From Apilactobacillus micheneri (GTDB lineage: Bacteria; Bacillota; Bacilli; Lactobacillales; Lactobacillaceae): a stretch of DNA of 64,000 nucleotides. The DNA is taken from assembly GCF_002993975.1 (NCBI RefSeq), contig NZ_POSO01000001.1:276611-340610 (forward strand). The letters run 5' to 3'. A program made the translations under genes and the position numbers. Below, piece by piece: positions 7,457-55,764 of this stretch (the stretch's first letter is position 1; each line of letters opens with the position of its first letter). Below the pieces are notes generated by a model, which did not search any database, was not told the DNA's origin, and saw only the letters and a program-made list of their open reading frames with translations.

Positions 7457-7458
7457 AT

Positions 7459-10199: not shown

Positions 10200-10201
10200 T
10201 A

Positions 10202-10353: not shown

Positions 10354-10384
10354 GGGGCAAAAAAACTTGGGAGGGTTTTTCATT

Positions 10385-11347: not shown

Positions 11348-11348
11348 T

Positions 11349-11391
11349 AAAAAAGTTTCCTACTATAAAATAATTAGTAGGAAACTTTTTT
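11349..11391. terminator. Bidirectional terminator
   Basis: AAAGTTTCCTACTA pairs with TAGTAGGAAACTTT, with A-run before and T-run after, serving the converging nucleoside hydrolase and HAD genes. Confidence 0.85.
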
Positions 11392-11393
11392 AT

Positions 11394-12197: not shown

Positions 12198-12285
12198 AAA
12201 ATTCATCTCCCCTGTTAATACCATTCTATACAAAAAAAGCATTAATTCAAATATGAATTAATGCCGTATACTCTAAAAATCAAGC

Positions 12286-12684: not shown

Positions 12685-12895
12685 ATCTATCACCTCTAAA
12701 ATCGCTTAATTAACGAAAAAACAAGTATATCTAATTATAAATACTTACTAATAGTAAATATTCATAACTACTTTTATGCTAACACAATAGAATTAGAAAT
12801 CAACAGCATTTAAAAACATATTATAAATTTACACAATCATAAAATAAGATTATAATTTCAATAAATGAACGGAATATATACGGGAGTGAAAAAGA

Positions 12896-14452: not shown

Positions 14453-14487
14453 AAAATAACCTCTAGAAAAATCTAGAGGTTATTTTT
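14453..14487. terminator. Bidirectional terminator
   Basis: AAATAACCTCTAGA pairs with TCTAGAGGTTATTT, with flanking A and T runs, between the nucleotidase gene and the convergent rny. Confidence 0.85.
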
Positions 14488-16070
14488 TATTTACTACTTG
14501 AATACTGTTTTTTGCGTTTTCCAACATATTGAACTGCTTTTAATGAACGAATAGCTGTCACTTTAATTTTACCAGGATAAGTTAATTCATCTTGAATCTG
14601 ATCTCTAACATGTTGAGTAAGTGCTTTACTCTTGTCATCATTCAGAATTTCTGGATTAACAATAATTCTAATCTCACGACCAGCTTGAATAGCATAACTA
14701 TCTTTAACACCTTTATGTTGATTAGCAATATTTTCAAGATTTCTTAAACGAGTAACATATTCTTCAATTGATTCACTTCTAGCACCAGGTCTAGCTCCTG
14801 ACATTGAATCCGCAGTTGCTACTAAAATGGAAATGGCATTAGTTGGCTCGACATCCCCATGATGAGAAGCAATTGCATTAACAACAACGGGATCTTCATC
14901 AAATGCTTTAGTCAATTTAACTCCTAACTCAACATGCGTCCCATCAACTTCGTGGTCAATGGCTTTTCCAATATCGTGCAACAAACCTGCGCGTTTGGCT
15001 AATTTAACATTCATTCCCAATTCAGCAGCTAACACACCAGTGATTTGAGCAACCTCAATTGAATGATATAAAACATTTTGCCCATAACTAGTTCTAAATT
15101 TTAGTTTTCCAATAATCTTCATTAAATCAGGATGCATTAATCCCACTTTTAATGAACGAACAACATTTTCACCAGTTTCACGCAAACCAGCATGTACATT
15201 TTGTGTTGAAACATTAACTTGGTTTTCAATATTACTATTAGTAAATTGGCGAGAAATAATTAAGTTTTCGATGGTTGTACGAACAATTTCACGACGAAAG
15301 GCGTCATGAGTAACAATATGCAATAATAGCAAATTTTCATCATCAAATATTAATTCAGTTCCCGTCAACGATTCTAATAGTCGAATATGTTGTTCGTCTC
15401 TTCCAATTAACTTAGCTTTTAGATCGCCATTTGGTAAAACTATATTTCTTTCAATGTGTGTCTTGGGTTCATCACGAGCACCACGTTGAATTGATTCAAT
15501 TAATAATGAGTTAGCTCGTTTATTAGCAGAAACCTTACTTTCAGCCAATTGATACTTAACTTCAATATCCATTTCTCGTTTTAACTTTTGCTTAGTATTT
15601 ACTAATACATAATCACGAGCTTGATCAAAATTAAAATCACTAATTTGTTCAAGTTTAGCATGCCGTTGATTTAAAATATCATGGGCATTATCTAAAGTCT
15701 TATCAACATCTGAAGCCAGTGCATCTTGTTGTGACTTACGATTATTTAAGTCGTTGGAAAACCCTAGTAAACGTTCTTTCATTTGATCTAAAAATTCTTC
15801 ATGTTGATCAAGACGTTGATTACGAGTCTCATTTTCATATTTTTGTGTGTCAATTTCATCATTAGAAGTCTTAATATATTGATCAATATCATGCTTTTCT
15901 TTATTAGCGATATTATTACAATATTCTTCAACTTTGCGATTATCATCTTCAAGATAGTATTTTGCCTTTATTTGTGCATTATTTATTTCATTATTCATTT
16001 TAAATTTATTGATAAATACACCAGCGATAATTCCTAATGACAAAAATAACGCAAATAATAAACCAACCAA
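14487..16070 (-). CDS. rny: Ribonuclease Y
   Basis: A 527-residue membrane-anchored endoribonuclease that initiates mRNA decay. Layout: N-terminal membrane segment (residues 1-22), long coiled coil (about 30-200), KH RNA-binding domain (about 210-270) and HD domain with LLHDIGKAID near residue 365. The start is TTG at 16070, eight bases after an unusually G-rich ribosome site (AAAGGGGGG). Length and order match family members. It stands alone between two terminated units. Confidence 0.95.
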   Translation of the reverse strand: MVGLLFALFLSLGIIAGVFINKFKMNNEINNAQIKAKYYLEDDNRKVEEYCNNIANKEKHDIDQYIKTSNDEIDTQKYENETRNQRLDQHEEFLDQMKERLLGFSNDLNNRKSQQDALASDVDKTLDNAHDILNQRHAKLEQISDFNFDQARDYVLVNTKQKLKREMDIEVKYQLAESKVSANKRANSLLIESIQRGARDEPKTHIERNIVLPNGDLKAKLIGRDEQHIRLLESLTGTELIFDDENLLLLHIVTHDAFRREIVRTTIENLIISRQFTNSNIENQVNVSTQNVHAGLRETGENVVRSLKVGLMHPDLMKIIGKLKFRTSYGQNVLYHSIEVAQITGVLAAELGMNVKLAKRAGLLHDIGKAIDHEVDGTHVELGVKLTKAFDEDPVVVNAIASHHGDVEPTNAISILVATADSMSGARPGARSESIEEYVTRLRNLENIANQHKGVKDSYAIQAGREIRIIVNPEILNDDKSKALTQHVRDQIQDELTYPGKIKVTAIRSLKAVQYVGKRKKQYSSSK

Positions 16071-16235
16071 AATGGCATCCCCCCTTTCTAAAATTATTAA
16101 TTACTTTTTATATTAAATTTAATTTAAAGTATCTATATACTCTTATTATCATAACATTTTAAAACCCTTTTTTTATAATAATAAACAATAATTTTATAAA
16201 AAATAAGCTATAAAATCAATTATAGCTTATCTATA

Positions 16236-17189
16236 TTAGTTAAAATAACGATCTAAGAAAGATTTGATTGTTTTAACATATAATTCTGGATTAGTTTGAT
16301 AAGATGCCGCATGTGGAGCATTTTTAACTAATAATAGTTTTTTAGGTCCCTTGGTTGCATTGTAAACAGGATAAACCATTCTAGTAGGTACAAAATTATC
16401 TTTAGATCCATGAATAAATAACATTGGTTTATGATTCTTTTTAACTTGTTTCAAGGCAGAAGCTGTATACAAACTATAACCAGCTCTAATATGGGTAATA
16501 CCACTTAAAATTGGTACTAATGGCCATCTAGGGAAATCTGATAAATGATATAACTGTTTTGCTTCATGATTAATTTCATCTGAAGCACTAGTGTACCCAC
16601 AGTCTTCAATATAAGCCTTCAATTGAGATGGTACAGATTTTTCACCAGATACCATCATGGTAGTAGCACCCCCCATGCTAACTCCAAACATAATCAATTG
16701 AGAATCCTTACCATTTTCTTCAATTATTCGACGCATCCATTTGATATAATCCATACGATCGGGCCAACCATATCCTACGTAATTACCTTGACTTTGACCA
16801 TGGCCACGACTATCAGGAGTTAAAACATTGTATCCCATTTGATGAAAGATATAAGCATATGGAGCCATTAGCTCTTTATTTCCCATATATCCATGTGCAA
16901 TGACTACCGTTTTCTTTGTGGGTTTATCAGCTGGTAAATAGTTAGCAACTAGTTTTAGATGATCAGTTGTCGACATTTGGGTCCAACGATATTTTTTAGC
17001 TGATTTATACCACTGATCACCTGGATAAAGTGGTGATGATTTAGATATTTTTTTGTCCTTCAAGAAATTCTTCTTTCCTGGAACTACTGCCACATGATAG
17101 AAATATAGTCCAGCTCCCAAAAAGCCAAAACACAATAGGAAAAAGAATATGCCTAAAGTAGTTAAGAAAATTTTTATTTTTTTACCCAA
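16236..17189 (-). CDS. Membrane-anchored alpha/beta hydrolase
   Basis: A 317-residue serine hydrolase with one N-terminal membrane segment and an extracytoplasmic domain. Motifs: VIAHGYMGNKE (oxyanion region), nucleophile elbow GVSMGG, acid in FIHGSKDNFVP and His in NAPHAAS. The fold resembles cell-surface esterases of lactobacilli; substrate unknown. ATG at 17204 has no ribosome site in front, whereas TTG 17189 has GGAG nine bases upstream, so I prefer TTG. Confidence 0.82.
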   Translation of the reverse strand: MGKKIKIFLTTLGIFFFLLCFGFLGAGLYFYHVAVVPGKKNFLKDKKISKSSPLYPGDQWYKSAKKYRWTQMSTTDHLKLVANYLPADKPTKKTVVIAHGYMGNKELMAPYAYIFHQMGYNVLTPDSRGHGQSQGNYVGYGWPDRMDYIKWMRRIIEENGKDSQLIMFGVSMGGATTMMVSGEKSVPSQLKAYIEDCGYTSASDEINHEAKQLYHLSDFPRWPLVPILSGITHIRAGYSLYTASALKQVKKNHKPMLFIHGSKDNFVPTRMVYPVYNATKGPKKLLLVKNAPHAASYQTNPELYVKTIKSFLDRYFN

Positions 17190-17305
17190 ATCAAACCACT
17201 CCATTTAATTTAATATTATTTTGATTATATGTTGCATATTACTAAAATACAACTATCTAACAGGATTTATTATTTTAAGTTATACTATTATTAGAGGTGA
17301 TTCAG

Positions 17306-17728
17306 TTGTTTCCAATAAGATTAAAAGCATTAAGAAAAGGCCAAAAAATTAGTTTAAAACAATTGGCAGAAAACTTGAATAAGTATTCAAAGGATAGTAA
17401 ACATCATAATACCCCTGCCCAAATTGGTAATTGGGAACGTGGTGTTAGGTCGCCATCATATTTAGAAATCAAAAAATTATCTTCATATTTTAATGTTAGC
17501 ATGGACTACTTAATTGGTAGAACATCAATTCAACATGTCAATTTAGAGACTGTTTTAATGAGTGAAAATAAAATAACATTTAATGATCAAACATTGACTC
17601 ATCATGATCGTTATGAAATTTTCCAATTAATTAATGGCTATTTGCATGGCAAAGATAACAATAATACAGAAAATAAAAATAATGAATATCAAGAAAGTTT
17701 AAATTTGGATTTAGATGATGATAAATAA
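17306..17728 (+). CDS. XRE-family helix-turn-helix regulator
   Basis: A 140-residue protein with a Cro/C1-type HTH over residues 4-70 (KQLAENLNK, then IGNWERGVRSPSYLEIKKLSSYFNVSMDYLIG) and an acidic, Asn-rich C-terminal tail with no recognised domain. Start TTG 17306 is eight bases after AGAGG; a GTG nine bases earlier overlaps that site. Target unknown; the divergent hydrolase gene is a possible one. Confidence 0.82.
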   Translation: MFPIRLKALRKGQKISLKQLAENLNKYSKDSKHHNTPAQIGNWERGVRSPSYLEIKKLSSYFNVSMDYLIGRTSIQHVNLETVLMSENKITFNDQTLTHHDRYEIFQLINGYLHGKDNNNTENKNNEYQESLNLDLDDDK

Positions 17729-17760
17729 AAAGATGATTTCAAGAAGAAATCATCTTTTTT
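17727..17760. terminator. Bidirectional terminator
   Basis: AAAAGATGATTTC pairs with GAAATCATCTTTT, with T-run on the + side, between the XRE gene and the convergent amt. Confidence 0.85.
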
Positions 17761-17761
17761 G

Positions 17762-19090
17762 TTAATCTTTTGGTAAATTGGGATTATTTAAATGTCCAAC
17801 TTGCCCTTTAAATTCATTAGCATTAACTTCAATATCTTTATTTTTATTAAATGCTCGATCATTAATTGAAACTGTATAGTCTGCGTTTTCACCATGTTCA
17901 GATTGATCTAGGCCACGCATTTCTTCCTGCTTAGTTACACGCATTGGCATAACTAATCTTAATAAAGAAATAATAATTGAACAGGCAATTACAACAAAAA
18001 TAATAGTGCCAAATGTAGCAATTAGTTGAATAAATACCATATGGAAACCACCACCATAAAATAAACCATTGGTAGTTACGGCCGAGTTAACTGATTTAGT
18101 AGCTAAAAATCCGGTTAAAATGCTACCAACAATTCCGCTAACTCCGTGGCAACCAAAAGCATCTAAAACATCATCTACCCCAATTTTAGGCTTCAAATAA
18201 TTTACAAATAAATAACTAGCAAATGTAGCTACAATCCCAATCACAAATGAACCTGTAATAGTGACAAAACCGGCAGCTGGAGTAATACCCACTAATCCAC
18301 ATAATGTTCCAGTACATACGCCATCTAATTGTGGTTTACCGACAAAATACATATCTAATAGCATCCAAACAAGCATTGAAGTGGCTGTTGCAACCGTTGT
18401 TGTCATAGTTGCTTGCATCGCAACATTGTTAACTGCTAATGCAGATCCAGCATTAAATCCATACCATCCAATCCATAAAATAGTCGTACCCAATAAAACC
18501 CAAGGTAAATTATAATGATGGGCATGGCGATTGCCTTTCATTCGCTTACCTAAAAAGATAGATAAAATTAAAGCAGTAATTCCCGCATTAATATGAACAA
18601 CGGTCCCCCCAGCAAAATCTAAAGTTCCTAATTTTGCTAAAATACCATTTGGTGACCAAACCATATGTACCATTGGATAATATAAAACGATTGACCATAA
18701 TATAATAAAAACCAATAGAAATTTAAAATGGATGCGTCCAACAACAGATCCAACAAATAACGCTGGGGTAATCACCGCAAACATCATTTCAAAAATAGCA
18801 TAAACACTGGTTGGAATTTTATTAGGCATCAAAGTCTTTAAGTCAATTCCATGCATCAAAGGATTTGATAAGTTCCCAATAAATCCTCCAATATTACCAG
18901 AAAAAGATAAACTATAACCTAAAATAATCCATAATAAGATTGCCAAACCAGTAATAATAAAAACTGACAGCATCGTGTTAACTACATTTTTCTTTGAAAC
19001 CAGTCCTCCATAGAAAAATGCTAAACCTGGAGTCATAAATAATACCAAAATACTTGATAAAAATACGAATGATGTACTAGCTAAATCCAT
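17762..19090 (-). CDS. amt: Ammonium transporter Amt
   Basis: A 442-residue protein with eleven predicted membrane segments and Amt hallmarks: FFYGGLVSKKNVVNTM near residue 25, FAGGTVVHINAGITAL near 160 and the pore His region FGCHGVSGIVGSIL near 313. It conducts ammonium into the cell. The cytoplasmic C-terminus (about 385-442) is long and acidic. No PII/GlnK gene is adjacent, so post-translational control by GlnK, usual in other bacteria, is not evident here. Confidence 0.93.
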   Translation of the reverse strand: MDLASTSFVFLSSILVLFMTPGLAFFYGGLVSKKNVVNTMLSVFIITGLAILLWIILGYSLSFSGNIGGFIGNLSNPLMHGIDLKTLMPNKIPTSVYAIFEMMFAVITPALFVGSVVGRIHFKFLLVFIILWSIVLYYPMVHMVWSPNGILAKLGTLDFAGGTVVHINAGITALILSIFLGKRMKGNRHAHHYNLPWVLLGTTILWIGWYGFNAGSALAVNNVAMQATMTTTVATATSMLVWMLLDMYFVGKPQLDGVCTGTLCGLVGITPAAGFVTITGSFVIGIVATFASYLFVNYLKPKIGVDDVLDAFGCHGVSGIVGSILTGFLATKSVNSAVTTNGLFYGGGFHMVFIQLIATFGTIIFVVIACSIIISLLRLVMPMRVTKQEEMRGLDQSEHGENADYTVSINDRAFNKNKDIEVNANEFKGQVGHLNNPNLPKD

Positions 19091-21346: not shown

Positions 21347-22233
21347 ATGCATAAGTGGATGTATCAAATAATAGTTCAAAATCTTAAATCGACTATTAGC
21401 ATTAGAGAATATTTAAGCCAATATTTATTAATACCTAAACATTTAATTTTTTCATTAAGAAAAGATAAAAGAGTAACTGTTAATAAAAAATATTTACCCA
21501 TGAATTTTACCGTCAAAAATGATGATCATATTAAAATTACATTTATTGATAATGATTTCAACTTGCCAACCCAAAATTTATTTCCTGATAATAGTCAAAG
21601 TATCAAAATATTATTTGAAAATAACGATTTATTAGTAGTAAATAAAAAACGTGGTATCAAGACCCATCCTAACAAGCCTCAGGAAATTGGAACTCTTTTG
21701 AACTTTTGTGAAGGATACCTAAATAAGTTCAATCAACACGCTTATATGATTCATCGCTTAGATCAAGAAACTTCAGGAGCCATTATAGTTGGTAAGAATC
21801 CTGCTGTTGTTCCAATTTTAGTAAGATTAATTAAGGACAAGACAATCCATCGTACATATTTAGCATGGGTTAATGGAATCTTCCATCAAAAATGGGTAAA
21901 ATTAATTTACCCATTGGTTATGACCAAACAGATAAAAGAAAAAGAGCAATAAACGGTCCAAATGCCAAAAAAGCATTAACTGAATATCAAGTTATAAAAG
22001 AATACAAAAACAAATCTCTAGTCGAAATTAATATCCAAACAGGACGCACCCATCAAATTAGAGTTCATATGCAAGCAATGGGACATCCTATTATTGGTGA
22101 TCCATTATATAATGAAAAAAACAACGTCGATAACATGTTATTACATTCTTGGAAACTAAAGTTGATCACACCATATTATATGCAAACAAAAATTATAGTA
22201 TCGCCTATTCCAGAAGAATTTAAAATTGTATAA
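21347..22233 (+). pseudogene. RluA-family 23S rRNA pseudouridine synthase, frameshifted
   Basis: Two overlapping frames encode the halves of one RluA/RluD-type enzyme of about 295 residues. Frame one (21347..21952) has an S4-like N-terminus and the catalytic motif MIHRLDQETSGAIIVGKN with the nucleophile Asp. Frame two continues with GKINLPIGYD, the TGRTHQIRVHMQAMGHPIIGDPLY motif, and the C-terminus. Adding one A to the five-A run at 21888-21892 joins them (FHQKMGKINLPI). Without it the product ends at residue 201. Reads should decide between assembly error and true mutation; four other loci here show the same one-A defect. Confidence 0.85.
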
Positions 22234-44641: not shown

Positions 44642-45922
44642 TTGAAAAAATTTAATAAAGCATCACTAGTAATTGCCCCTATGGCATTAATGTTATTTAG
44701 TAGTTCATTAAACATCCCTAAGGTTATGGCAGATAATAATGGTAGTTGGTCAGAACAAGAACAAATTAATCAACAAAATAAATATAATCAAGAATTAGTT
44801 AATAAGTATAAAAATTATACGACTAAAGAACTATATGAATATTTATCTAAAGTTGAGTCAACAATTCCAAGCATTATTAATGGTGCAAATGATGGGTTCA
44901 AAAAAGCATTAGATAGTAATTATAATAATGAAAAAAATACATTTAATAGTTGTAAATCAGATATTAATAACTTTGATTTAGATAATAAAAGCAAAGTTTA
45001 CTCTACAAATAGTCTTAATAATTGGATAATACATTATCATGGAAACAATGATATTAATAATAGAATAAAAGATTTAACTAAAGTAATAGATTCAAGTAAT
45101 AACGATTCAATTAATGATGAACAATTAGAACAAATAAAAAATATTAAATCAGACTATTTAAATTTCTTAGACAGTTCAATAAATAATTTAGATAATAAAT
45201 ATCAATCAGATTTAAATAATTTAAATAAAGAAATAGATAAAGATAAAGAATATTCAAATAATGCCTTATCATATGCAACAAAATATCAACAGATTTCAAA
45301 ATTAAGTAATGATATTATTTCTACAAAAAACATTGATGATATCAAAAACGTTTTATCTGATTATAACTTTGCTACTAATAATATAAAAAGTTATCAATAC
45401 GCAAAAAACGACATAAATACTACTAATAATTTAAGAGAATTAGAATCATACTTAATGAGAACTTATATTGATGAGTCTAATAAATCATCTATAAGTTTGG
45501 ATGATGAAATTGATAATCTTAAGAACCAAATAAATTCAATAAATAATAAATCAAATAATTCATACATTCCAGTATCAAACAATTCGAATGTTAATAACAA
45601 CAATGATGCATTAAAAAATGAACTAAACAATGCCAAAAATAATATTAACAATATAATTAACAAAAATGTTGAGTTAAGTAATACTACAAGTTCACTTAAA
45701 AATGAAATTGAAACTTTAAAAAAACAAGTTCACGAATTAAAGAACAATAAAAGGTCAAAAAATAAAAACACTAAGGCAAATAAAAGAACTTTAAACCAAA
45801 AGAAAAAAGAATTGAATAAAGTAAATAAAGAGCTTAAAAAACATATTAGAAAAAGTAATAAAAAGAAATTAATTCAAAAAAGAAACTCTATTTTAAAAAG
45901 TATTAAAAAATTAAACAAATAA
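44642..45922 (+). CDS. Secreted Asn-rich coiled-coil protein
   Basis: A 426-residue protein starting at TTG 44642 after TAGGAG. The signal peptide cleaves near VMA|DN (residue 31). The mature protein is extremely Asn/Lys/Ser-rich and helical, with a long coiled coil near residues 320-375 (LKNELNNAKNNINNIINKNVELS) and a strongly basic C-terminus (KKKLIQKRNSILKSIKKLNK). No LPxTG or anchor motif is present, so the basic tail may hold it on teichoic acids. I recognise no family. Confidence 0.72.
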   Translation: MKKFNKASLVIAPMALMLFSSSLNIPKVMADNNGSWSEQEQINQQNKYNQELVNKYKNYTTKELYEYLSKVESTIPSIINGANDGFKKALDSNYNNEKNTFNSCKSDINNFDLDNKSKVYSTNSLNNWIIHYHGNNDINNRIKDLTKVIDSSNNDSINDEQLEQIKNIKSDYLNFLDSSINNLDNKYQSDLNNLNKEIDKDKEYSNNALSYATKYQQISKLSNDIISTKNIDDIKNVLSDYNFATNNIKSYQYAKNDINTTNNLRELESYLMRTYIDESNKSSISLDDEIDNLKNQINSINNKSNNSYIPVSNNSNVNNNNDALKNELNNAKNNINNIINKNVELSNTTSSLKNEIETLKKQVHELKNNKRSKNKNTKANKRTLNQKKKELNKVNKELKKHIRKSNKKKLIQKRNSILKSIKKLNK

Positions 45923-45925
45923 ATT

Positions 45926-45954
45926 AAAAACACATCCAAATTGGATGTGTTTTA
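45926..45954. terminator. Bidirectional terminator ending the defence operon
   Basis: AAACACATCCAA pairs with TTGGATGTGTTT, with runs on both sides; shared by the Asn-rich protein gene and the GIY-YIG gene. Confidence 0.82.
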
Positions 45955-46845
45955 TTTATCTAAATATTCTTTTAATGTTTTTCCACTCTTATCTTTCCAC
46001 AGTGTATTCCCATTAGCTGAAGACTTATAAATCATTCTAGCAGCAGTTGATGGACTATCAAAAACATAATCTTTTTGAAATACATTATCTTTAATAACCC
46101 CACTATCAACTAATGATTGATAACTACGTAAGTTAGCAGTATTAAAACTACTACTAAAATATTTTGGTGACAATTTGGAACCTTTTAAGACTTTGAAGTC
46201 ATTTTTAATAACAGCCTTGGCATCACTATCTCGACCATTCATATAAAAGATGGTCTTAGATATATCCAATGATGCATTGTTTGTATTATCAGTCACTAAT
46301 TTTACAGGTTTAGCTTTCTGCATATGAAAAATGGGTAATCCCAATATTCTTAATAGTGTATCAAGGTCAGCAAAATCGTTTTTAAAGTTTTCTTTATCAC
46401 GTAAACTAATCATTGAATTTCCACTAGGTTGATGTTCAGAAAATAGTGAGATTCTTTCTTTTTTATTAATTAGCTGATAAATATAACGTTCAAGATATAA
46501 GATTTCATCTTGAGTAAATGATGTGTCATTATTCTTAATAAATAAGATTGCTAAATTCCACCAGTTTTCTTTATCAACATTATGCTCATAAGTTCTTTTA
46601 GTAATATTTTTAGCTTGTCCTATATAAATTTTAGTTTCATTAGTAATTGAATGATTTGCATCAACATTCATTAATAAATAAACCCCAGAATGTTTTAATT
46701 CATCATGTCTATTTAATACATCATTAACTTCATTCCTGGGAACATAATAGGCAATAATACTACCACCATTATTATATCCACAATATTTAAAACTAAAATA
46801 ATCATCTTCATTTGATAAGAATGTGTAAATGTCTTTTGATCTCAT
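45952..46845 (-). CDS. GIY-YIG nuclease with DUF4357 domain
   Basis: A 297-residue protein, last in the hsdRMS-SIR2 operon. The GIY-YIG domain (about 50-140) shows GVYLLMNVDA, KIYIGQAKNITKRTYEHN (Tyr, Gly and Arg of the active site) and a later Glu-rich helix DEILYLERYIYQLI. The C-terminal DUF4357 (about 235-297) contains SPSTAARMIYKSSANGNTLWKD, seen in many defence-associated nucleases. It may cut foreign or damaged DNA. Starts 19 bases after the SIR2 stop. Confidence 0.85.
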   Translation of the reverse strand: MRSKDIYTFLSNEDDYFSFKYCGYNNGGSIIAYYVPRNEVNDVLNRHDELKHSGVYLLMNVDANHSITNETKIYIGQAKNITKRTYEHNVDKENWWNLAILFIKNNDTSFTQDEILYLERYIYQLINKKERISLFSEHQPSGNSMISLRDKENFKNDFADLDTLLRILGLPIFHMQKAKPVKLVTDNTNNASLDISKTIFYMNGRDSDAKAVIKNDFKVLKGSKLSPKYFSSSFNTANLRSYQSLVDSGVIKDNVFQKDYVFDSPSTAARMIYKSSANGNTLWKDKSGKTLKEYLDK

Positions 46846-46864
46846 AAAACACCTCTTAAATGTA

Positions 46865-49381
46865 TTAATTATTTAAAGATTCTTTATAAACGTCAACTCC
46901 CATTTTCATCAATATATAAATAGTCTCTTGATCAAGTTTCCCAGATTTTAATTTATTTTTTAGTTTGCTATTAAATATAATATTTCTATTTTTCTTAAGA
47001 TATTTCAAAAATTTATTTTTTCCATTTAAAAAATCAAAAAATATGGATCTTAACCAAACATAACTATCTAAATTTACTAAGGAATAATCAAAATTTTCAG
47101 GATCATATAAAAAGTTAATTATAGGATATTTATTTTTGATAGGTTCTATACTTTTTTTCTTAAAATTATATCCACTTGATTTTAAAATCATAATCAACAA
47201 TAATCTATTTTCAGGATCAAAAGAACTAGTTTTAATATTTTTATTATCGTTTTGAATTTCTTCTACTATTTTTTTAAACATTTTTTGTAAATTTTTACCA
47301 TATATATATCCGTTAATATAAAGTTCACATAATATATAAACATCTTCATTAACATATTTATCAACAAATCTTTTAGAAAATCTTTTATTGAAATATGCTT
47401 TATTAATAGTAAATCTAAATAAATAAACGTAATATAAATCTATATTATTATAATATAAAATATTATTTTTAACTTTTAAAAACAATTCATCGTTATTGCT
47501 ATATTTATACCATAAATTAACAAATTCATAATTTAGAAAATATTTGTGAGGAAGTTTATTAAAAAGCTCTATATTAGAAAAAATATTCAATAAATATAAA
47601 TCTGATTTAAGAAAATTGTTCTTATTAAAAAGAACTTGGTTATTAACAAAATAATTGAAAAAATTTCTAACTAAATTTACTGAAGTGTATAAATGATCAA
47701 ATATTATATCTGTAATCTTTTTATAAATAGTCAATATATTATCTTCTGTTAAATTTTTACTATAAGAAAATAGAATTAAAAAATTCGATATATAACTAAG
47801 CATCTTATTAATTATATATCTATTAAATTTATTTTTTAGCATAAAATTATAAGAATCACAAAGCATGACAAAAGATTTAATTATTTCATCAATGTTGTCA
47901 AATAATATATATTTAATATTAGAATCATTTATAATATTTTTTAAATGTTCTTCATCTAATTTTTTGATAATAATATCAATATCCAATAAGTTCAATTTAT
48001 AATCATTATCATAATGATTACCGAATATTCCATTATTGGTATTAATATAAGTAATTAATATCAGTTTTAAATACAATTCATATAAGTCTTCATTTGCATT
48101 ATTTTCAAACATTCTATTAATAATAGAATAATTATAAATATCATAAACAATAGGTTGCAAATAATCCAACTTAAAATATGTCTTTTTAAGTTTTATTGTA
48201 TCCCCAACATCAAATCCAAAAGATATTCCCTCGTATCTATTAAGCTGCTCTTTATAAAAATCTGATAGTTTATCTCTTTTAATAATTGAACCATTTAATA
48301 TTTCTTTATTAAATTTGGAATATTTGTCCTGTAGAGTGGTTTCGTTAATATAAGAATTATTTCGTCCATTAAAAGTTATTATATTTTTTTTGTTAATAAA
48401 ATAATTAATATAGTTATTTTCCTTATTGAATGAAACATCATCTAATTCTTTTGAAATAACATTTCTATTATCGTCTTTAAAGAAAGGATCCTTCGAACAA
48501 AAAATATATCTAATATAAATTAAATCAACCTTGAAAATATCTTTTGCATACATTTTTTTATATAAGTTTATATAATCATTGAATTTTAAACTATTATAAA
48601 TATAATCACGAATTTTATTTTCTTTTACATTAAACGTCTTACCATTTTTACATACAATATAAAATTCGGAAATTTTATTAACAACATCTTTTAATAAATT
48701 ACTTAAATCATCATTATTAGAAATAATTTTAATAAGTTTATCGAATATAGGTTCAGAAACAATGATGATGTTATTTTTCACTCTAGTTTCATTAGAAGAT
48801 TCATCGAGTAATGGAAATATAATATCTAATAAGTATTTATATGAAACATAATTTAATTTATGAATTTGCTGTAAGGATGTTTTTAAATCAAAATCATCGC
48901 CATTATATAAATATTTCATGACTGAATAAATAGGAACCGCATGTTTTTGGTCTAATAAACAATTATAATTATATTTTGATATTAAAGAATCAACATCATT
49001 TAGATCAATAAGATCAATATTATTATTATTAAAGTATTTTTTCTGAATATCATATCCATACCTATCTTTTTCAGATACATTAATAAGTAAAACGTTGTTC
49101 TTATAATCATTAATTGATAATTTTTGTTTTAAATAATTATACCAATTCATAATTAATTTTAGATTATTATCACTTATGGAATAACCAATAAATAAAAAAG
49201 TATGCGTTGCTAATAAACTTTTTATAAAATTAGAAATTAATAAGTGATCATTTTCGTAGTTCAAGTAATCTTTATCTTTCAAAACTATAGATTCAAGATG
49301 ATTAATATCGCCATGCATTTTAATTATAAAGTGATTACTTTTAGAAGAATTGTTTATAAAAGAACTATCATCATAAATCAT
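46865..49381 (-). CDS. SIR2 protein, C-terminal ORF (838 residues)
   Basis: The second part of a SIR2-domain protein. Its first 100 residues complete the SIR2 fold: catalytic His in IIKMHGDINHLESIV (H23) and FLFIGYSISDNN near 62. The following 700 residues are a helical, Asn/Lys/Tyr-rich region with no motif I recognise; its size and position resemble the sensor half of DSR-type anti-phage SIR2 proteins. It starts on ATGA overlapping the stop of the N-terminal ORF, and adding one A to the six-A run (complement of 49389-49394) makes a single 966-residue protein. Very AT-rich compared with hsdR/hsdM, suggesting separate acquisition. Confidence 0.8.
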   Translation of the reverse strand: MIYDDSSFINNSSKSNHFIIKMHGDINHLESIVLKDKDYLNYENDHLLISNFIKSLLATHTFLFIGYSISDNNLKLIMNWYNYLKQKLSINDYKNNVLLINVSEKDRYGYDIQKKYFNNNNIDLIDLNDVDSLISKYNYNCLLDQKHAVPIYSVMKYLYNGDDFDLKTSLQQIHKLNYVSYKYLLDIIFPLLDESSNETRVKNNIIIVSEPIFDKLIKIISNNDDLSNLLKDVVNKISEFYIVCKNGKTFNVKENKIRDYIYNSLKFNDYINLYKKMYAKDIFKVDLIYIRYIFCSKDPFFKDDNRNVISKELDDVSFNKENNYINYFINKKNIITFNGRNNSYINETTLQDKYSKFNKEILNGSIIKRDKLSDFYKEQLNRYEGISFGFDVGDTIKLKKTYFKLDYLQPIVYDIYNYSIINRMFENNANEDLYELYLKLILITYINTNNGIFGNHYDNDYKLNLLDIDIIIKKLDEEHLKNIINDSNIKYILFDNIDEIIKSFVMLCDSYNFMLKNKFNRYIINKMLSYISNFLILFSYSKNLTEDNILTIYKKITDIIFDHLYTSVNLVRNFFNYFVNNQVLFNKNNFLKSDLYLLNIFSNIELFNKLPHKYFLNYEFVNLWYKYSNNDELFLKVKNNILYYNNIDLYYVYLFRFTINKAYFNKRFSKRFVDKYVNEDVYILCELYINGYIYGKNLQKMFKKIVEEIQNDNKNIKTSSFDPENRLLLIMILKSSGYNFKKKSIEPIKNKYPIINFLYDPENFDYSLVNLDSYVWLRSIFFDFLNGKNKFLKYLKKNRNIIFNSKLKNKLKSGKLDQETIYILMKMGVDVYKESLNN

Positions 49382-49764
49382 TTTATAATTTTTTCAGACC
49401 CTACATTGTTTATAGATTGTTCTATTAATGTGTCATAATTAGTTGTGATAATATGATCAGGTTGTAATTTGATTATTAGATCGTCCAATTGATTAGTTTC
49501 ATAATCATTATTTAAGACTTCGTTTAATACCTTTTTATATTCATCTGGGCTTTTATCAAATAACATTTGAGGTATCTTTAGATAATCATCACTACTTAAA
49601 TCATCTACATTTATTTCAAGACTTTCTCCCATTTTTTTAACAAGATAACCCCAACCTGGAATATTAGAATTCCTAGATATACCTGATCCCACAAATATCA
49701 CTAATTTTGAATCATTGTTAGCATTAATAATTTTGTTTAAAATATTTTTATAATTACTATTCAT
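49378..49764 (-). CDS. SIR2 protein, N-terminal ORF (128 residues)
   Basis: The NAD-binding half of the SIR2 domain: LVIFVGSGISRNSNIPGWGYLV (GSGIS at residues 26-30) and IITTNYDTLIEQ (catalytic Asn at 109). The matching His is in the next ORF, so neither part alone can hydrolyse NAD. The gene begins at ATG 49764 after GATGAGG, 19 bases behind hsdS. With the frame restored the junction reads EKNYKMIYDDSSF, a natural SIR2 sequence, so I regard the split as a one-base defect rather than two genes. Confidence 0.82.
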   Translation of the reverse strand: MNSNYKNILNKIINANNDSKLVIFVGSGISRNSNIPGWGYLVKKMGESLEINVDDLSSDDYLKIPQMLFDKSPDEYKKVLNEVLNNDYETNQLDDLIIKLQPDHIITTNYDTLIEQSINNVGSEKIIK

Positions 49765-49783
49765 TTAGTACCTCATCAAAATA

Positions 49784-51006
49784 TCATATAAATAATCTTT
49801 GAAAATATGATTGCTTTATTTTTCTTAAATTATATTCTTTTTGTGATTGTAAATTAATTAGTTGATCTAGTTTATTGAAAAATAAACCCATTTTTTGTTG
49901 TTCTTGTTTTTGAGGAATATTCAATAATAAAGAATTTATTATTTTTCCGGAAAGATTGCCCTGTCCACCTTGTAAATATTTTCTAACAATATAATTTTTT
50001 TTATAAGACAATAAATTATATATATAAATATTATTACAATAATCATTTACCTTAATTGCTAGTATAGCCTGATTAATAGCACCATTAATTTTAGATATAC
50101 TTACCTCACCACTATTGGCACCATATAAGGCATATAATATAGTTCCTTTATCGACTAATTTAGCAGATGAGTTCTTTAGTCCTTCTTCTGATATATTTAT
50201 CTTAGTATTCTTAGAATCTATCTCTCCTGATCTAATAAAAGGAATTTCTCCATTGTAATAAGAAGTTACTGAAATATTAGGTGTACCTCCAGAAAAGGAT
50301 ACTGAAATATCTGATATTTTTTTATACTCCCATTCTCCACTAAATCCATAAAATCTTAATCTAGGAACACTTTCACCTTTTTGTGGAAACATTTTTTGTA
50401 AATATCCATGTTTTAACTTTTTAAGTTGTTCAACTTTTTTAGATTGAAGATCAATTAATTGATCTAATTTAGCAAAGAATGATCCTATTTTTTCTTGTTC
50501 ATTTATTTTAGGTAAAATTAAGGGCATATTTTGAAATGTTACATCTTTAACTGCAATTCTATCTGATCTAGCTCCTGAATTACCATTTTGATAAATAAAT
50601 TTATGCCATTTGGAAGAAATAAAATAATTATCTAAAAAATTATAATCATTATTATTAATATTAAATACATAATACAAAGGTGAAACTATTCCTTTAATTC
50701 CAGTTTTATTTCTTCTTATAGGTCCATATTTAGCAAATTTAGAAACCCTAGGATTATATATATAGTCATTTGGATTAACTTTATAATAACCATTTATATT
50801 TTTAGAATTAGCAATTTTTTTATCAAAAAAATTTTTTTGAGTAATAACACCAAATTCAGCAGAATCTGTTAATACATTTTTTATAGATTTCTTTTCATTT
50901 TTATAAACCCTTTTTTCTGATACATCACCTAATCTTTTCTCTTCCCATTCACCTTCAAATCCCTTAAATCTTAAACGAGGGATTTTTTTATACTATTTTT
51001 TGTCAT
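49784..51006 (-). pseudogene. hsdS: Type I restriction specificity subunit HsdS, frame broken near its start
   Basis: The reading frame encodes a full two-TRD HsdS of about 407 residues: IPRLRFKGFEGEWE at the start, first conserved repeat FFAKLDQLIDLQSKKVEQLKKLKHGYLQKMFP, a second PRLRFYGFSGEWE, and the closing FFNKLDQLINLQSQKEYNLRKIKQSYFQRLF. But this frame runs straight from the hsdM stop without any start. The expected ATG (51004-51006, inside the hsdM end) reads MTKNSIKK and joins only if the seven-A run (complement of 50983-50989) had eight A. As written it stops after 11 codons. Either assembly error or an A-tract on/off switch. Confidence 0.85.
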
Positions 51007-52588
51007 CAGATTTCACATCCGTTTCAACTAAATCTGCTGCCATGGCATCGAAGTCTTTTTGCACTTGGGCAATTTGAGCATCTAAGTCCTTAATATTATT
51101 TTTAACTTCATCGATATCAATATCTGGTTCGGGTTCAAAAGTATCGACATAGCGTGGAATATTTAAATTAAAGTCATTTTCTTTAATTTCATCATATGAT
51201 GCAACATGGGCATACTTATTCACATCTTGATGTTCTTTATATGTTTTAACGATTTTAGCGATATTATCAGGCGTAATATTATTTTGATTCTTCCCTTTTT
51301 CAAATTCACGTGAAGCATCAATGAACATAATGTCTGAATTATCTTTATCTTTTTTCAATACCATAATTAAAGTTGGAATACTTGTAGAATGGAAAATATT
51401 AGCAGGCAAACCAATTATGGCATCAATGCGATTATCTTCGATTAATTTTTGTCTGATTTTACCTTCTTTGGCACCTCTAAATAAGACTCCATGAGGTAAA
51501 ACAATCCCCATTGTTCCATTTTCTTTTAGATGGTATAAACCATGTAATAAGAACGCATAATCAGCTTTCGACTTAGGAGGTAACACTCCATAATCTCTGA
51601 AACGAGGATCCGATAAGCGTTCATTACTGTTATCCCAATGTGCTGAATATGGTGGATTCATTACCACAGCATCAAATTGATATGGTTCTTCAACTGGCCA
51701 ATCTTTGTCTAAAGTATCGCCATTACGTAAATCCATATCTTCATAAGACACATTATGCAACATCAAGTTCATACGCGCTAAGTTATAAGTGGTAGTATTT
51801 AGTTCTTGTCCATGATATTGAATTAAACTAGGATCTTGTACATGTTGTCCGACATTCAATAGTAAGGAACCAGAACCAACGGCTGGATCATAGATAGTTC
51901 TAATTTGATTATCACCAGCATTACGCTTATAAGTTACAATTTGTGAAATGATATCAGAAACTTGGCGTGGAGTGTAGAATTCACCAGCTTTTTTACCAGA
52001 ATCACTAGCAAATTGGGCAATTAAATATTCATAAGCATCACCTAGAACATCTCCATTATGACCTAATAAATCAATATCATTTAAGGCCAACATGGTATCA
52101 CTAATCACTTGATTACGTTGACGTAAGTTACCGCCTAATTTATTACTGTGTAAATCAACATCATCGAATAAGCCTTCAAAATCTTGTTGGGAAGTTTGTC
52201 CATTTGTAGAAACTTCTAGTTCATGCAAAGCCTTTTCTAGGTTTTCTAACTCAAAATCTCCGGAATTAATTTCAGCGATTAGATTACTATATAAATATTT
52301 AGGTTCAATGTAGTAACCAACTTTGCTTAATAATGAGTTATATATAAATTTACTAGTATCATCTTCAGCTGATAAATATTTTTCATAGGCATCCTTAATC
52401 ATTTGAATATCTTGATCTTGAATATCAGTACTTTCGGCAAACGCTTGCAGTGATTTAATTGATAGAAAGCGGTAAAAGATTAAGCCTAATAAATAGTTTT
52501 TGTATTCAGAAGCATCCATTTTACCTCTTAAGACATCGGCTGCATTCCATAATGAACTTTCTAAGTTGCTTGATTGTTGATTAGCCAT
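50993..52588 (-). CDS. hsdM: Type I restriction-modification methyltransferase HsdM
   Basis: A 531-residue N6-adenine methyltransferase subunit. N-terminal helical domain (about 10-160); SAM motif I TIYDPAVGSGSLLLNVGQ near 225 and catalytic NPPYS near 305; FYTPRQVSDIISQ near 200 is typical of HsdM; a C-terminal coiled coil (about 490-525). It methylates host DNA with HsdS and supplies the scaffold for HsdR. It starts 14 bases after hsdR; its last codons overlap the proposed hsdS start. Confidence 0.96.
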   Translation of the reverse strand: MANQQSSNLESSLWNAADVLRGKMDASEYKNYLLGLIFYRFLSIKSLQAFAESTDIQDQDIQMIKDAYEKYLSAEDDTSKFIYNSLLSKVGYYIEPKYLYSNLIAEINSGDFELENLEKALHELEVSTNGQTSQQDFEGLFDDVDLHSNKLGGNLRQRNQVISDTMLALNDIDLLGHNGDVLGDAYEYLIAQFASDSGKKAGEFYTPRQVSDIISQIVTYKRNAGDNQIRTIYDPAVGSGSLLLNVGQHVQDPSLIQYHGQELNTTTYNLARMNLMLHNVSYEDMDLRNGDTLDKDWPVEEPYQFDAVVMNPPYSAHWDNSNERLSDPRFRDYGVLPPKSKADYAFLLHGLYHLKENGTMGIVLPHGVLFRGAKEGKIRQKLIEDNRIDAIIGLPANIFHSTSIPTLIMVLKKDKDNSDIMFIDASREFEKGKNQNNITPDNIAKIVKTYKEHQDVNKYAHVASYDEIKENDFNLNIPRYVDTFEPEPDIDIDEVKNNIKDLDAQIAQVQKDFDAMAADLVETDVKSDDKK

Positions 52589-52602
52589 TTCAATTCTCCT
52601 TA

Positions 52603-55600
52603 TTAATAATCATTCATTTCACGAATGAATCGTTCTAGTTCTGGTTGTAAAGCTTGATTATAGCTTAATTTGTTCTTAATTAGTACATTTACTAATTTAC
52701 TAAATTCACTATCTGGTTGTTGTTTGGCCGCTGCTTGGTAGTCTCCAGCATCCATTAAGTCTTGAATATGTGGAAAGTCATCATTAGCGGCATCATAATC
52801 TTCAGTTATCTGTTTTAGTTCATTGGTTGGTAATCCCCATTTTGTGGCAAATTTTTCATAAGATTGATGCTTTTTGTTTTCTTCATAATGGGCAACAAAA
52901 GCATCAAATTTATCTGGAGCAACGTAATTATGTTTTAAATATCCTAACATTTCTCGCAATAATGTAGCTTGCTTAGCATGACCAGATTGATCGTACTCAT
53001 TAATTTTGGTTTGAACTTCTGCTTCTTTTTGCAGATATTCAGGCATGTTTTCTTGATATTCTGTATCAGTTTTATATTGAGGGGTTAAATCAACTAATTC
53101 CTTAATTAAATTAGTAATGTAATCATAGTCAACTAATGTCGTTGAACCAACTGATAATGAGAAATCTAGATTATCTAATTCATCGTCTTTATCAGTATCA
53201 TTATCTGGCTTATCTTTAACTTCTTGTTTAATCCGTTCATATTTACCAACATAATGTTGCACTTCATCTTCAGCTAAACCAAATTCTTGTTCACTATTAT
53301 TCCAAGAAAAATCATTATACATAGATAGTGAATTCAATTTGTTAATTACTTTTCTAAATGTTTTTACAAAACTAACTTTAGCATTATCGCCCTTTAAATC
53401 ATCAGCTGCATTAGCATTCGGAGCAACTGCTTTTAAGTCAGCCACCAAGCCACTAAATTCTTTAACGGCATCTTGATAATCAGGACGAATCAATTCCTTG
53501 TAAGAACCACCTTCACCGTATAATTGATAAGCATCAATTTCATTTTGTTCTGTAGTTGCTGGTCTTCTAAAAGTAACGATTTGTCCTTCACGTTTATAGT
53601 CATTATTCTCTAAACGATTAGTTCTGGAATAAGCTTGAATTAAGTCTGCATATTCAAAATTTCGATCAACAAATAACGTATTTAATTTAGGAGCATCAAA
53701 ACCAGTTAATAAACGACGAACTACAATTACAATATTGATTTCTTTATCCTTATCTAAATGTGCATAATAAGATTCACGACGTGCAGCACGTTTAGCGACA
53801 TCTTCATTATATAAATTAATTTCTTCATTATTATTATGGAAGTTTGTCCCATATTGCTCGTTATAGTCTTTAAGGATTGTTGTCATTTCATCTTGGTTCT
53901 TTTGACTATCATCATTATTTTCAGTTAATGAATAAGTAATGGCAACACGAGGCCAACCGCTATCTTTTTTATTAACAATATTTTGCTTTTGCGCTTTAAA
54001 TTTTTGATAGTATCGCATGGCCATTTCAATGGAGCTCGTAGTTAGAATAGCATTGTAATTACCATGACCTAAACTAGTCTTACGTGGTCCTTGCTTTAAG
54101 ATATAATTAACAACTTGATTTAAATGATCATCTTTTTCATACATCTTACTAGTTAGGTATTTTTCTTTATCAATTTTTTTCATTGAATGAACATCAGATA
54201 TAATTTTTGCTTTGTCATCTTCAGTCACAATTTTACCGTGATTTGATTTTTTCTTAGCTTCCTTATCTTCCACTTTTTGAATGACAATGTCATCTAAATT
54301 ATCAATTGTATCAACATGTTCAACATTGAATGGTAAAACCGCATGATCTTCTAAAGCATCCCGCAAATTATAAGTATGACAACACTTACCAAATAATTCT
54401 TCGGTAGTAACTCCAATATCACCTTTAAATTTTTTCTTGTTTTCATTGAAGATTGGAGTTCCGGTATAGCCATACCAATTACTATTAGTAAAAGCTTGTT
54501 TAATACTTTGACGCATTTTACCAAATTGTGAACGGTGTGCTTCATCAACAAAGAAGCATACTCGTTTCTTAAGGATCTTGCTAATTTTGGTATTACGACC
54601 ATCTGCTTGTGCCTGTTGCTCATCACTAACTAAGTTGGCCATTTTTTGAATTGATGATACTAAGATTTTACTGTCATTTTTCAAAAGTTCACGTTTTAAG
54701 CTACCTGTATTTTTAGCATCTTTAATTTGCATATCATCATTATATGCATATGCATTAAAATTGTTAGTAGTTTGGTCATCTAAAGCTTTACGATCAACTA
54801 AGAATACTACTCGATCAACTGCTGGTAATTGAGCTGCTAACTTAGCAGTTTTATATGAAGTTAGGGTTTTTCCAGAACCAGTTGTATGCCATACATAACC
54901 ATTTTCATGTTCTTTTATTCTTTTCATAACAGCTTCAATCGCATAAATTTGATATGGTCTTAGCAATAATAATTTTTTACGTTCTTCATCTAAGGCTGTA
55001 TATTCACTAACAATTTTATGTGCCATTGGAATATTCAATGCTTGTTTAGTAAAGTCCATCCCATTTTCAATCAACTTATTGTTGGCATCACGCCATTTAA
55101 AAATAAATGACTTATTAAATTCATCAGGCTTACAATTAGCAAAATAGGCGGTACTGTCAGGACTCATAATGACAAACATTTGTAGTAATGAATAAATATC
55201 ACTATATTTATTTTCTTTGGAATATTTTTTAATTTGGTTAAATGCTTGATTAATTTCGACAGTAGATTTCTTTAACTCTAATTGAATTAATGGCAGTCCG
55301 TTAATTAATAAAGTGACATCAAAGCGACGATCTTTGGTATCCCCCATGGATGAATTACCTGGTCGAATTGCTTGGCGTACAATTTCATAGCTAGAATTGC
55401 CACCTGCCACATCAGCTTTCCAAAAAATACTAAGTGTAACCTGCTTGCCCAAGCTTACATCATCACGTTCAATTTCAATCTTACCGATACCATTTTCAGA
55501 ATCTAATAATTGTGCAGCTTCATATGGACTTTTAACATTACTAATTTTGTTTTGCACTCTTTTAAATTCTTCATCAGTTAATGGCTTTTGTTTTAAAGCT

Positions 55601-55764
55601 GCCATATTATTATGATTTAATTTATTGCGAAAATTATCCCATAATTGTTCAGGAGTAGCTTCATACAAATCTTTTCTCTCCGTCCATTGATTACTATCAG
55701 TGGAAAGTTGTTTAACAACTTGTTTTTCAAAGTCTAGTTCACCTTGAGTTTTATAATTAGTCAT
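52603..55764 (-). CDS. hsdR: Type I restriction endonuclease HsdR
   Basis: A 1053-residue restriction and translocation subunit. The N-terminal nuclease carries RRFDVTLLINGLPLIQLELKK (PD-(D/E)xK type, about 125-145). The SF2 motor has HTTGSGKTLTS near 293 (Walker A), FFVDEAHRSQFG near 403 (DEAH box), YTGTP, and VVRRLLTGFDAPKLNTLFVD near 680. The C-terminus is helical for HsdM contact. It cuts unmodified DNA after translocation. First gene of the operon; GAAAGGA precedes the ATG. Confidence 0.96.
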   Translation of the reverse strand: MTNYKTQGELDFEKQVVKQLSTDSNQWTERKDLYEATPEQLWDNFRNKLNHNNMAALKQKPLTDEEFKRVQNKISNVKSPYEAAQLLDSENGIGKIEIERDDVSLGKQVTLSIFWKADVAGGNSSYEIVRQAIRPGNSSMGDTKDRRFDVTLLINGLPLIQLELKKSTVEINQAFNQIKKYSKENKYSDIYSLLQMFVIMSPDSTAYFANCKPDEFNKSFIFKWRDANNKLIENGMDFTKQALNIPMAHKIVSEYTALDEERKKLLLLRPYQIYAIEAVMKRIKEHENGYVWHTTGSGKTLTSYKTAKLAAQLPAVDRVVFLVDRKALDDQTTNNFNAYAYNDDMQIKDAKNTGSLKRELLKNDSKILVSSIQKMANLVSDEQQAQADGRNTKISKILKKRVCFFVDEAHRSQFGKMRQSIKQAFTNSNWYGYTGTPIFNENKKKFKGDIGVTTEELFGKCCHTYNLRDALEDHAVLPFNVEHVDTIDNLDDIVIQKVEDKEAKKKSNHGKIVTEDDKAKIISDVHSMKKIDKEKYLTSKMYEKDDHLNQVVNYILKQGPRKTSLGHGNYNAILTTSSIEMAMRYYQKFKAQKQNIVNKKDSGWPRVAITYSLTENNDDSQKNQDEMTTILKDYNEQYGTNFHNNNEEINLYNEDVAKRAARRESYYAHLDKDKEINIVIVVRRLLTGFDAPKLNTLFVDRNFEYADLIQAYSRTNRLENNDYKREGQIVTFRRPATTEQNEIDAYQLYGEGGSYKELIRPDYQDAVKEFSGLVADLKAVAPNANAADDLKGDNAKVSFVKTFRKVINKLNSLSMYNDFSWNNSEQEFGLAEDEVQHYVGKYERIKQEVKDKPDNDTDKDDELDNLDFSLSVGSTTLVDYDYITNLIKELVDLTPQYKTDTEYQENMPEYLQKEAEVQTKINEYDQSGHAKQATLLREMLGYLKHNYVAPDKFDAFVAHYEENKKHQSYEKFATKWGLPTNELKQITEDYDAANDDFPHIQDLMDAGDYQAAAKQQPDSEFSKLVNVLIKNKLSYNQALQPELERFIREMNDY

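Follow-up and report, generated by a model that had tools for sequence, protein, structure and literature searches.

A type IC restriction-modification operon of Apilactobacillus micheneri with a putative remote DSR2-type sirtuin gene and a GIY-YIG nuclease gene at its 3′ end

We analyzed a window of 64,000 nucleotides in the genome of Apilactobacillus micheneri (assembly GCF_002993975.1, contig NZ_POSO01000001.1, positions 276,611 to 340,610). Between positions 45952 and 55764 of the window, the minus strand carries the genes of a type I restriction-modification (RM) system, followed at the 3′ end by a gene for a SIR2-domain protein (sirtuin) and a gene for a GIY-YIG/DUF4357 protein. The cluster is real and of a known kind, and it has a new member, a sirtuin remotely of the DSR2 type. 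Genomes and loci used for comparison are designated by G and L numbers. The features, with their open reading frames (ORFs) in the order of the operon and lengths in amino acids (aa), are as follows.

52603-55764, minus strand: hsdR, restriction subunit of the EcoR124 (type IC) class, 1053 aa, with HSDR_N, SWI2_SNF2, T1R_D3-like and EcoR124_C domains; profile TIGR00348
50993-52588, minus strand: hsdM, methyltransferase subunit, 531 aa, with N6_Mtase and HsdM_N domains; profile TIGR00497
49784-51006, minus strand: hsdS, specificity subunit with two Methylase_S stretches; given as 49784-50677 in the ORF list
49378-49764, minus strand: N-terminal ORF of the SIR2 gene, 128 aa, with GSGIS and TTNYD motifs (by eye) and weak PADLOC matches to ThsA and Dsr2
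46865-49381, minus strand: C-terminal ORF of the SIR2 gene, 838 aa, with a KMHGD motif, the rest of the SIR2 domain (SIR2_2, 59.5 bits) and a long C-terminal part apparently remotely related to DSR2
45952-46845, minus strand: GIY-YIG/DUF4357 nuclease gene (PADLOC candidate PDC-S14), 297 aa, with DUF4357 and conserved GIY-YIG positions
45927-45953, both strands: bidirectional terminator-like stem, ending both the operon and a convergent gene (44642-45922)

A preliminary description of this DNA had noted six tightly spaced minus-strand ORFs ending at one shared terminator, and the ORF list, gap measurements and a terminator scan bear this out. The intergenic distances are 14 bases (hsdR to hsdM), 19 bases (hsdS to the N-terminal SIR2 ORF) and 19 bases (C-terminal SIR2 ORF to the GIY-YIG gene), and the two SIR2 ORFs overlap by 4 bases. 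All gaps are thus 19 bases or less, or overlaps, provided that the extent of hsdS is taken from its open frame rather than from an internal TTG. The terminator consists of a stem of 12 pairs flanked by T-runs on either side; the scan gave 4 terminator-like sites where 2.6 were expected from shuffles. Promoter-like sites numbered 74, against 84 in shuffles, so they showed no excess over chance. We infer that hsdR, hsdM, hsdS and the SIR2 and GIY-YIG genes are co-transcribed. The GC content is 18.6% in the C-terminal SIR2 ORF, 24% in hsdS, 27% in the GIY-YIG gene, 31% in hsdR and 33% in hsdM (window, 29.9%). The low value of the SIR2 ORF would fit a separate entry of this gene but is no proof of it; hsdS is low too.

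The RM genes were assigned with NCBIfam profiles. HsdR scored 336 bits with TIGR00348 (cut-off 284.6) and HsdM 406 bits with TIGR00497 (cut-off 243). HsdR has the EcoR124 C-terminal domain, which we take to be the mark of a type IC system. As one operon encodes an EcoR124-class HsdR, an HsdM and an HsdS that has two target domains, the RM part is of type IC. The HsdM family had a single further match in the same genome, weaker and on another contig.

The preliminary description had seen in the SIR2 protein, of about 966 residues, the layout of DSR-type defence proteins, and profile comparisons supported this. Pfam found SIR2-type domains only. The ThsA, Dsr1 and Dsr2 profiles of PADLOC and NCBIfam matched the N-terminal ORF weakly, and ThsA also matched the SIR2 region of the C-terminal ORF. 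When the C-terminal ORF and its three closest homologues were used as a profile against the PDB, Bacillus subtilis DSR2 was the best solved relative (58.6 bits), followed by a chain named deacetylase (30.7 bits) and ThsA (28.6 bits); the DSR2 match lay in and just past the SIR2 domain. DSR2 is described as cleaving nicotinamide adenine dinucleotide (NAD) through Asn133 and His171 and as binding the phage tail tube with its middle and C-terminal domains (PMC11087589). The corresponding Asn and His are present here, divided between the two ORFs: KMHGD aligns with the relatives, and TTNYD, assigned by eye, is the same motif in the relatives.

For the long C-terminal part, a profile was made of five relatives (L203, L204 and L206 to L208: Trichococcus, Lachnoclostridium and three Clostridia metagenome-assembled genomes [MAGs]). 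It matched that of the window protein with 39.1 bits (E = 6e-12), while the top score among 287 decoys (each of 7 targets shuffled 40 times and reversed once) was 3.7 bits. The same profile gave 77.7 bits for L202 and 69.3 bits for a relic of the gene in L. brevis; the C-terminal parts of L145, L210 and L212 were not among the 20 matches listed. In a second step, a joint alignment (A9, 8 rows) was compared with the C-terminal parts of two Paenibacillus dauci proteins, the first of which is DSR2-like (282 bits to DSR2 in the PDB). They aligned over 348 columns with a probability of 93 and a score of 65, while eight column shuffles scored 13 to 22.2. The aligned stretch ends at a common D-P-x-x-F-D-Y motif, which is present in DSR2 too. 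These two steps, both above shuffles, indicate a remote homology to the middle and C-terminal region of DSR2. A distant branch of the DSR2 superfamily is thereby indicated for Lactobacillaceae, Trichococcus and Clostridia. NADase activity of the sirtuin and a phage trigger are predicted by analogy with DSR2.

The protein is far from the NCBIfam Dsr2 family: the N-terminal ORF scored 22.1 bits and the C-terminal ORF had no match (cut-off 1400). Intact relatives were below this cut-off too (L203, L206, L208 and L211, 39 to 66 bits), and L202 matched Dsr1 with 29.6 bits. A score of 392 bits to DSR2 with a further profile (A7) was discounted: its Paenibacillus rows by themselves find DSR2, and C-terminal profiles without them find none. 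Thoeris ThsA was rejected as an identity of the window sirtuin, its profile covering the SIR2 part only and no ThsB family appearing among the PADLOC hits of the operon. Nor is the sirtuin of the PDC-S25 type, matches to which were weak and confined to the N-terminal ORF.

The hsdS and SIR2 genes are both broken in frame as assembled. The listed hsdS ORF opens at an internal TTG, 315 bases past hsdM. Upstream of that TTG the same frame has neither a stop as far as the hsdM stop codon nor an ATG, GTG or TTG, so that by its frame hsdS directly adjoins hsdM. An ATG at 51006, within the end of hsdM, is out of the hsdS frame and is followed 11 codons later by a stop; a run of seven A separates it from the main frame. 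Thus hsdS is broken within its first codons and is not intact. In a congener (G012), hsdS is intact and likewise starts inside hsdM. The N- and C-terminal SIR2 ORFs lie in different frames, and by eye their junction falls in A-rich sequence near 49380-49400. The catalytic motifs are divided, GSGIS and TTNYD being on the N-terminal ORF and KMHGD on the C-terminal one. The SIR2 gene is therefore broken inside its catalytic domain and lacks the one intact ORF of DSR2. The preliminary description had spoken of a SIR2 in two ORFs: there are two, and they are really one broken gene, the 838-aa ORF starting in the middle of the catalytic domain.

One explanation is decay: the breaks are real, and the sirtuin gene and perhaps hsdS are without function in the present strain. 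Breaks outside the island were sought by mapping ORFs of another genome, G010, on the window at 50% identity or more (61 ORFs, some of them antisense or overlapping). Three of the 61 were flagged for more than one frame; two of these were tandem paralogues, and one was judged a genuine break. With two breaks in the operon against this one outside, the Fisher test gave p = 0.024 (exploratory, from approximate counts), and the breaks seem to cluster in the island. Broken SIR2 genes are also present elsewhere, namely those of Gemmiger L205 (in-frame stop) and G187 (L143), and the L. brevis plasmid relic beside a transposase. The genome, however, is 93.4% complete, where 14 of the 15 congeners listed reach 94 to 99%, and both broken genes are rich in A/T runs, where sequencing errors gather. 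We put decay at slightly below an even chance.

Homopolymer errors alone, with both genes intact in the living strain, are the other explanation. Sequencing errors are possible because hsdS and SIR2 are the richest in A/T runs among the operon genes: runs of six or more occur 10.8 times per kb in hsdS and 7.2 times in the C-terminal SIR2 ORF, and 1.1 to 2.5 times in the GIY-YIG gene, hsdM and hsdR. Both breaks are at or near A-runs (partly by eye). Against this stands the single break judged genuine in about 50 kb of conserved syntenic genes outside the island. This explanation is plausible too, to just under half of our expectation.

The break in hsdS has a seven-A run in a slip-prone frame, and a programmed frameshift there is possible. 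For SIR2 a programmed frameshift was unsupported, since most of the relatives found are single ORFs. Barring sequencing error or ribosome slippage, full-length sirtuin is probably scarce or absent in the strain, and HsdS is perhaps scarce.

We noted similar damage elsewhere. The break judged genuine outside the island lies at 21347-22230 of the window, where a pair of ORFs matches a single 295-aa G010 ORF in two frames. The SIR2 genes of L143 (G187, 10922-12489) and L205 (9533-11755) are split or internally stopped, and inactivation of such SIR2 genes may be common. In the congener G013 (L215, 5375-6985), hsdM is in two ORFs, so that broken RM genes recur in the genus.

The GIY-YIG gene matched PADLOC PDC-S14 over its full length (222.7 bits, residues 1-294 of 297). 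In Pfam, it matched DUF4357 (53.5 bits) and, below the cut-off of 22.6, GIY-YIG (16.9 bits). DUF4357 was noted in proteins with GIY-YIG domains in a 2015 paper (PMC4619093), and the PDCs are described as candidates found by embedding, with experimental validation pending for most (PMC12988326). In 11 aligned rows, G54, Y74, G76 and H88 were invariant and Y56, R84 and E119 nearly so; these presumably include the catalytic residues of the GIY-YIG fold. No solved relative of this gene was found.

A profile of the GIY-YIG family (A2) had matches, mostly partial, in 76 of 301 genomes of the family Lactobacillaceae, and strong ones (E < 1e-35) for 16 genes in 15 genomes. Flanks were examined in 13 of the 14 other genomes with strong matches (G273 was left out): type I genes were present in two (G012 and G235) and type II genes in G010. 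Among the matches listed, weaker or partial ones lay about 5 kb or less from hsdR in G339, G070 and G057 (in the last, a second gene). The order hsdM-hsdS-hsdR-GIY-YIG is present in G129, a genome from outside the family. Neighbours of other GIY-YIG genes include housekeeping genes. In G235 (L217, 687-7880), the type I locus has pieces of hsdS in opposite orientation with integrase-like ORFs (by eye) between them, an arrangement that suggests specificity switching by inversion.

The same RM operon was compared in congeners. G012 has hsdR-hsdM-hsdS-GIY-YIG without SIR2, with identities to the window genes of 70% (hsdR), 78% (hsdM), 50% (hsdS) and 57% (GIY-YIG). G004 has hsdR-hsdM-hsdS and a second hsdS, and G013 has hsdR-hsdM-hsdS with its divided hsdM; neither has the GIY-YIG or SIR2 gene. 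The four RM operons of the genus thus carry four different 3′ tails. In G010, the same chromosomal site, as defined by flanking genes, has no type I match. Its GIY-YIG gene (76% identity) is found with a C5 methylase, a MutH-type enzyme and Vsr; the contig region (L048, 9046-14513) also includes a helix-turn-helix gene next to it. The window site is therefore a defence hotspot at which the RM type has been swapped in G010. From these contents we conclude that the operon tail varies and that the GIY-YIG gene may stay while the RM type changes.

The sirtuin of the window is rare. Its C-terminal part was found in 4 of 397 genomes of the family, its own included, and in 1 of 398 genomes of the class, which was its own. 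The other three carriers in the family were G422, G394 and, with a weak match interrupted by three stops, G237, and the window Hsd proteins had no match in the sequence stretches examined around these SIR2 genes. In G422, which is identical to Lentilactobacillus diolivorans, the start of the SIR2 gene adjoins what looks by eye like a hydrolase gene, and its far end runs close to the edge of the contig; the matching tail is at the end of another contig. The tail on that contig (L067, G422:C22, 7298-10190) is the point of convergence of two genes, one MazG-like (by eye) and one coding for 585 aa with a GIY-YIG part. Three plasmid records had matches, two with a C-terminal relic only and one with a SIR2 domain match. 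On the L. brevis plasmid, the C-terminal relic is beside a transposase, hsdS is 7 kb away with the transposase and a toxin-antitoxin pair in between, and there are two GIY-YIG genes. None of 146 pattern hits in viral contigs was a relative of the window SIR2.

A scan of genome contigs gave 12 loci with SIR2 relatives. Matches to type I genes were absent from the flanks examined at all 12, some of these flanks being short. In L208, a gene that includes a Dam-type methylase part follows the relative at a distance of 1.6 kb. In L211 (1291-7481), from a Bacilli MAG, the gene for a 1072-aa relative starts within the last 4 bases of a 991-aa methylase-type gene, which has weak matches to PglX/BREX methylases. 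The preliminary description had held that SIR2 homologues normally found elsewhere, with no RM link, would speak against its proposal, and this is largely what the 4 of 397 genomes and the 12 contig loci show.

We consider it likely that this is a type IC RM operon whose 3′ end took up two independent defence genes, one for a remote DSR2-type sirtuin and one for a PDC-S14 GIY-YIG nuclease. The relatives suggest that the two genes are separate add-ons rather than parts of one new system, and we infer that both proteins act independently of the RM enzyme. In such an arrangement, the RM system would cut unmodified DNA early. An intact sirtuin would stay idle until its C-terminal part bound a phage protein (the tail tube in the case of DSR2). 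It would then destroy NAD, and the infected cell would stop before phage release. The GIY-YIG nuclease would cut DNA separately, by its own recognition. Shared transcription would bring sirtuin and nuclease in together, making physical coupling to HsdRMS unnecessary. In the present strain, the sirtuin is probably off, by decay or assembly error.

The preliminary description had instead suggested that a constant link of RM, SIR2 and GIY-YIG genes, if it recurs, would be a single new system. The three genes or gene sets share a transcription unit here, and looser combinations occur in G070 and G060. In G070 (L069, G070:C1:199000-218900), one strand carries, at 6537-18616 and in this order, an hsdR divided over two ORFs, a GIY-YIG gene and a first SIR2 gene; an ORF that resembles HerA by eye and two further genes then separate the first SIR2 gene from a second, of 916 aa. 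In G060 (L201, G060:C6, 3972-8996), a GIY-YIG gene is about 3 kb from a 529-aa SIR2 gene, with no hsdR match in the 19 kb examined. The GIY-YIG genes of both match only the nuclease part of the profile, and the SIR2 genes are of other kinds; G070 is thus a looser recurrence of the combination with other subfamilies. The exact combination was present in one genome only, and each part is also present where the others are missing: 4 of 397 genomes have the SIR2 C-terminus, the congener operons lack SIR2, and the GIY-YIG gene occurs beside type II genes. A constant link was thus not borne out, and a single three-part system is extremely unlikely.

Several observations weigh against two independent additions with a sirtuin of DSR2 type. 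The C-terminal homology to DSR2 is remote, because the C-terminal profiles A3, A8 and A9 retrieved no DSR2 chain from the PDB in one step. The match of the window protein to the five-relative profile carries a composition bias of 105 bits, and the same profile gave only 5.5 bits (E = 0.088) for the Paenibacillus DSR2-like C-terminal part. The frame breaks may be sequencing errors, and HsdS may still be made, given the seven-A run. The remaining points are from a survey of SIR2 genes in the family, in which recurrence at type I RM operons was found, as the preliminary description had anticipated, with other kinds of SIR2. The SIR2_2 survey listed 55 rows in 42 of the 301 genomes, and 53 were examined with flanks, the window's own row and one below the cut-off being excluded. 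Eight of the 53, at seven loci, lay 7 kb or less from an HsdR match, where 0.2 to 0.33 would be expected; this comparison is exploratory and assumes 150 to 240 HsdR genes, the HsdR matches listed being a lower bound, and genomes of 2.2 Mb. All eight were downstream of hsdR on the same strand, and hsdR, GIY-YIG and SIR2 genes are together also in G070. The excess, the uniform orientation and the G070 case leave room for a functional coupling.

The eight genes are in G302, G187, G211, G042, G157, G208 and G070 (two genes), and they are diverse. G302 has a full-length ThsA following ThsB, after hsdR. The SIR2 gene after hsdR is of the PDC-S25 type in G042, and that in G211 is of a PADLOC SIR2 type. 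The gene in G187 begins like that of G042 and is split. G208 and G070 have short SIR2 genes followed by an ORF taken as HerA (by eye). The SIR2 proteins of G157 (915 aa) and G070 (916 aa) have C-terminal parts that do not align with the window's. The remaining 45 genes had no HsdR match in the flanks examined, a few of which were cut by contig ends; one of them, in G254, had a weak HsdM-type match 6.5 kb away. The whole picture is one of defence genes clustering at the 3′ ends of RM operons, not of one system. It suggests that these 3′ ends are landing sites for SIR2 effectors.

The G157 locus (L145, G157:C1:984000-1003900) is a parallel case. At 5667-15384 it has hsdR-hsdM-hsdS, a 261-aa gene without a Pfam or PADLOC match and the 915-aa SIR2 gene, beside genes resembling a conjugative element (by eye). 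Membership of this SIR2 in the window's family was rejected, as only the SIR2 domain aligns.

A coupling could follow the example of PrrC, which is encoded in the type IC operon EcoprrI and released when T4 Stp inhibits the enzyme (PMC3874165). Here, the type IC enzyme would hold the sirtuin inactive, and a phage block of restriction would free it, with NAD loss as a second line of defence. The operon is of the same kind as that of PrrC, and the downstream, co-directional placement recurs for SIR2 genes. However, the closest SIR2 homologues, in L. diolivorans and at the 12 contig loci (some with short flanks), are not beside type I RM genes; the C-terminal part is apparently remotely related to the sensor region of DSR2; and congeners retain the RM operon without SIR2, so that the association is not constant. 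DSR2 itself senses the phage tail tube (PMC11087589), and the second line on failed restriction, as in the preliminary description, is unsupported. We therefore regard a PrrC-like coupling as possible but unsupported, and as very unlikely. The broader proposition, that downstream, co-directional SIR2 genes of various subfamilies serve the type I RM operons of Lactobacillaceae as interchangeable NADase fail-safes, silenced by RM and freed when a phage blocks restriction, is most improbable. The rate found across the family makes the question of RM-SIR2 coupling testable with intact relatives.

The arrangement has precedents among known systems. EcoprrI (prrABCD) is similar in having a gene for a suicide-type effector, the anticodon nuclease PrrC, within a type IC RM operon; it differs in that the effector of the window would target NAD and not tRNA, and that the RM link is not constant. 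DarTG2 is reported in a type I RM operon of enteropathogenic Escherichia coli (RRDM island), with the notion of "guilt by embedding" (PMC12255303), and TgvAB in a type I operon of Vibrio cholerae VPI-2, where it is protective without HsdR (PMC11411939). Both are, like the genes here, separate defence modules inserted in a type I RM operon. They are of other families, and DarTG2 lies between hsdS and hsdR, whereas the insert of the window follows hsdS and precedes the last gene.

In a lactic acid bacterium, SIR2/HerA (GAO_19) lies between or downstream of RM systems in an island of Streptococcus thermophilus CR3 and is reported to protect when cloned alone (PMC11514479). It shares with the window a SIR2 effector located at RM systems in such a bacterium, and differs in having a HerA partner and in having been tested alone and found protective. 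PDC-S14 is matched by the GIY-YIG gene with the 222.7 bits given above, and PDC-S25 is represented by the SIR2 gene that follows hsdR in G042. In the part of the literature that was covered, a DSR2-type gene inside a type I operon was not found. With DSR2 of B. subtilis (PDB 8k98 and others), the sirtuin shares an N-terminal SIR2 domain with catalytic Asn and His motifs, a C-terminal part of about 600 residues and the D-P-x-x-F-D-Y motif; it differs in being very remote, in its broken frame and in its location in a type I RM operon. The window thus adds a sirtuin to the defence genes, such as PrrC, DarTG2 and TgvAB, known inside type I RM operons.

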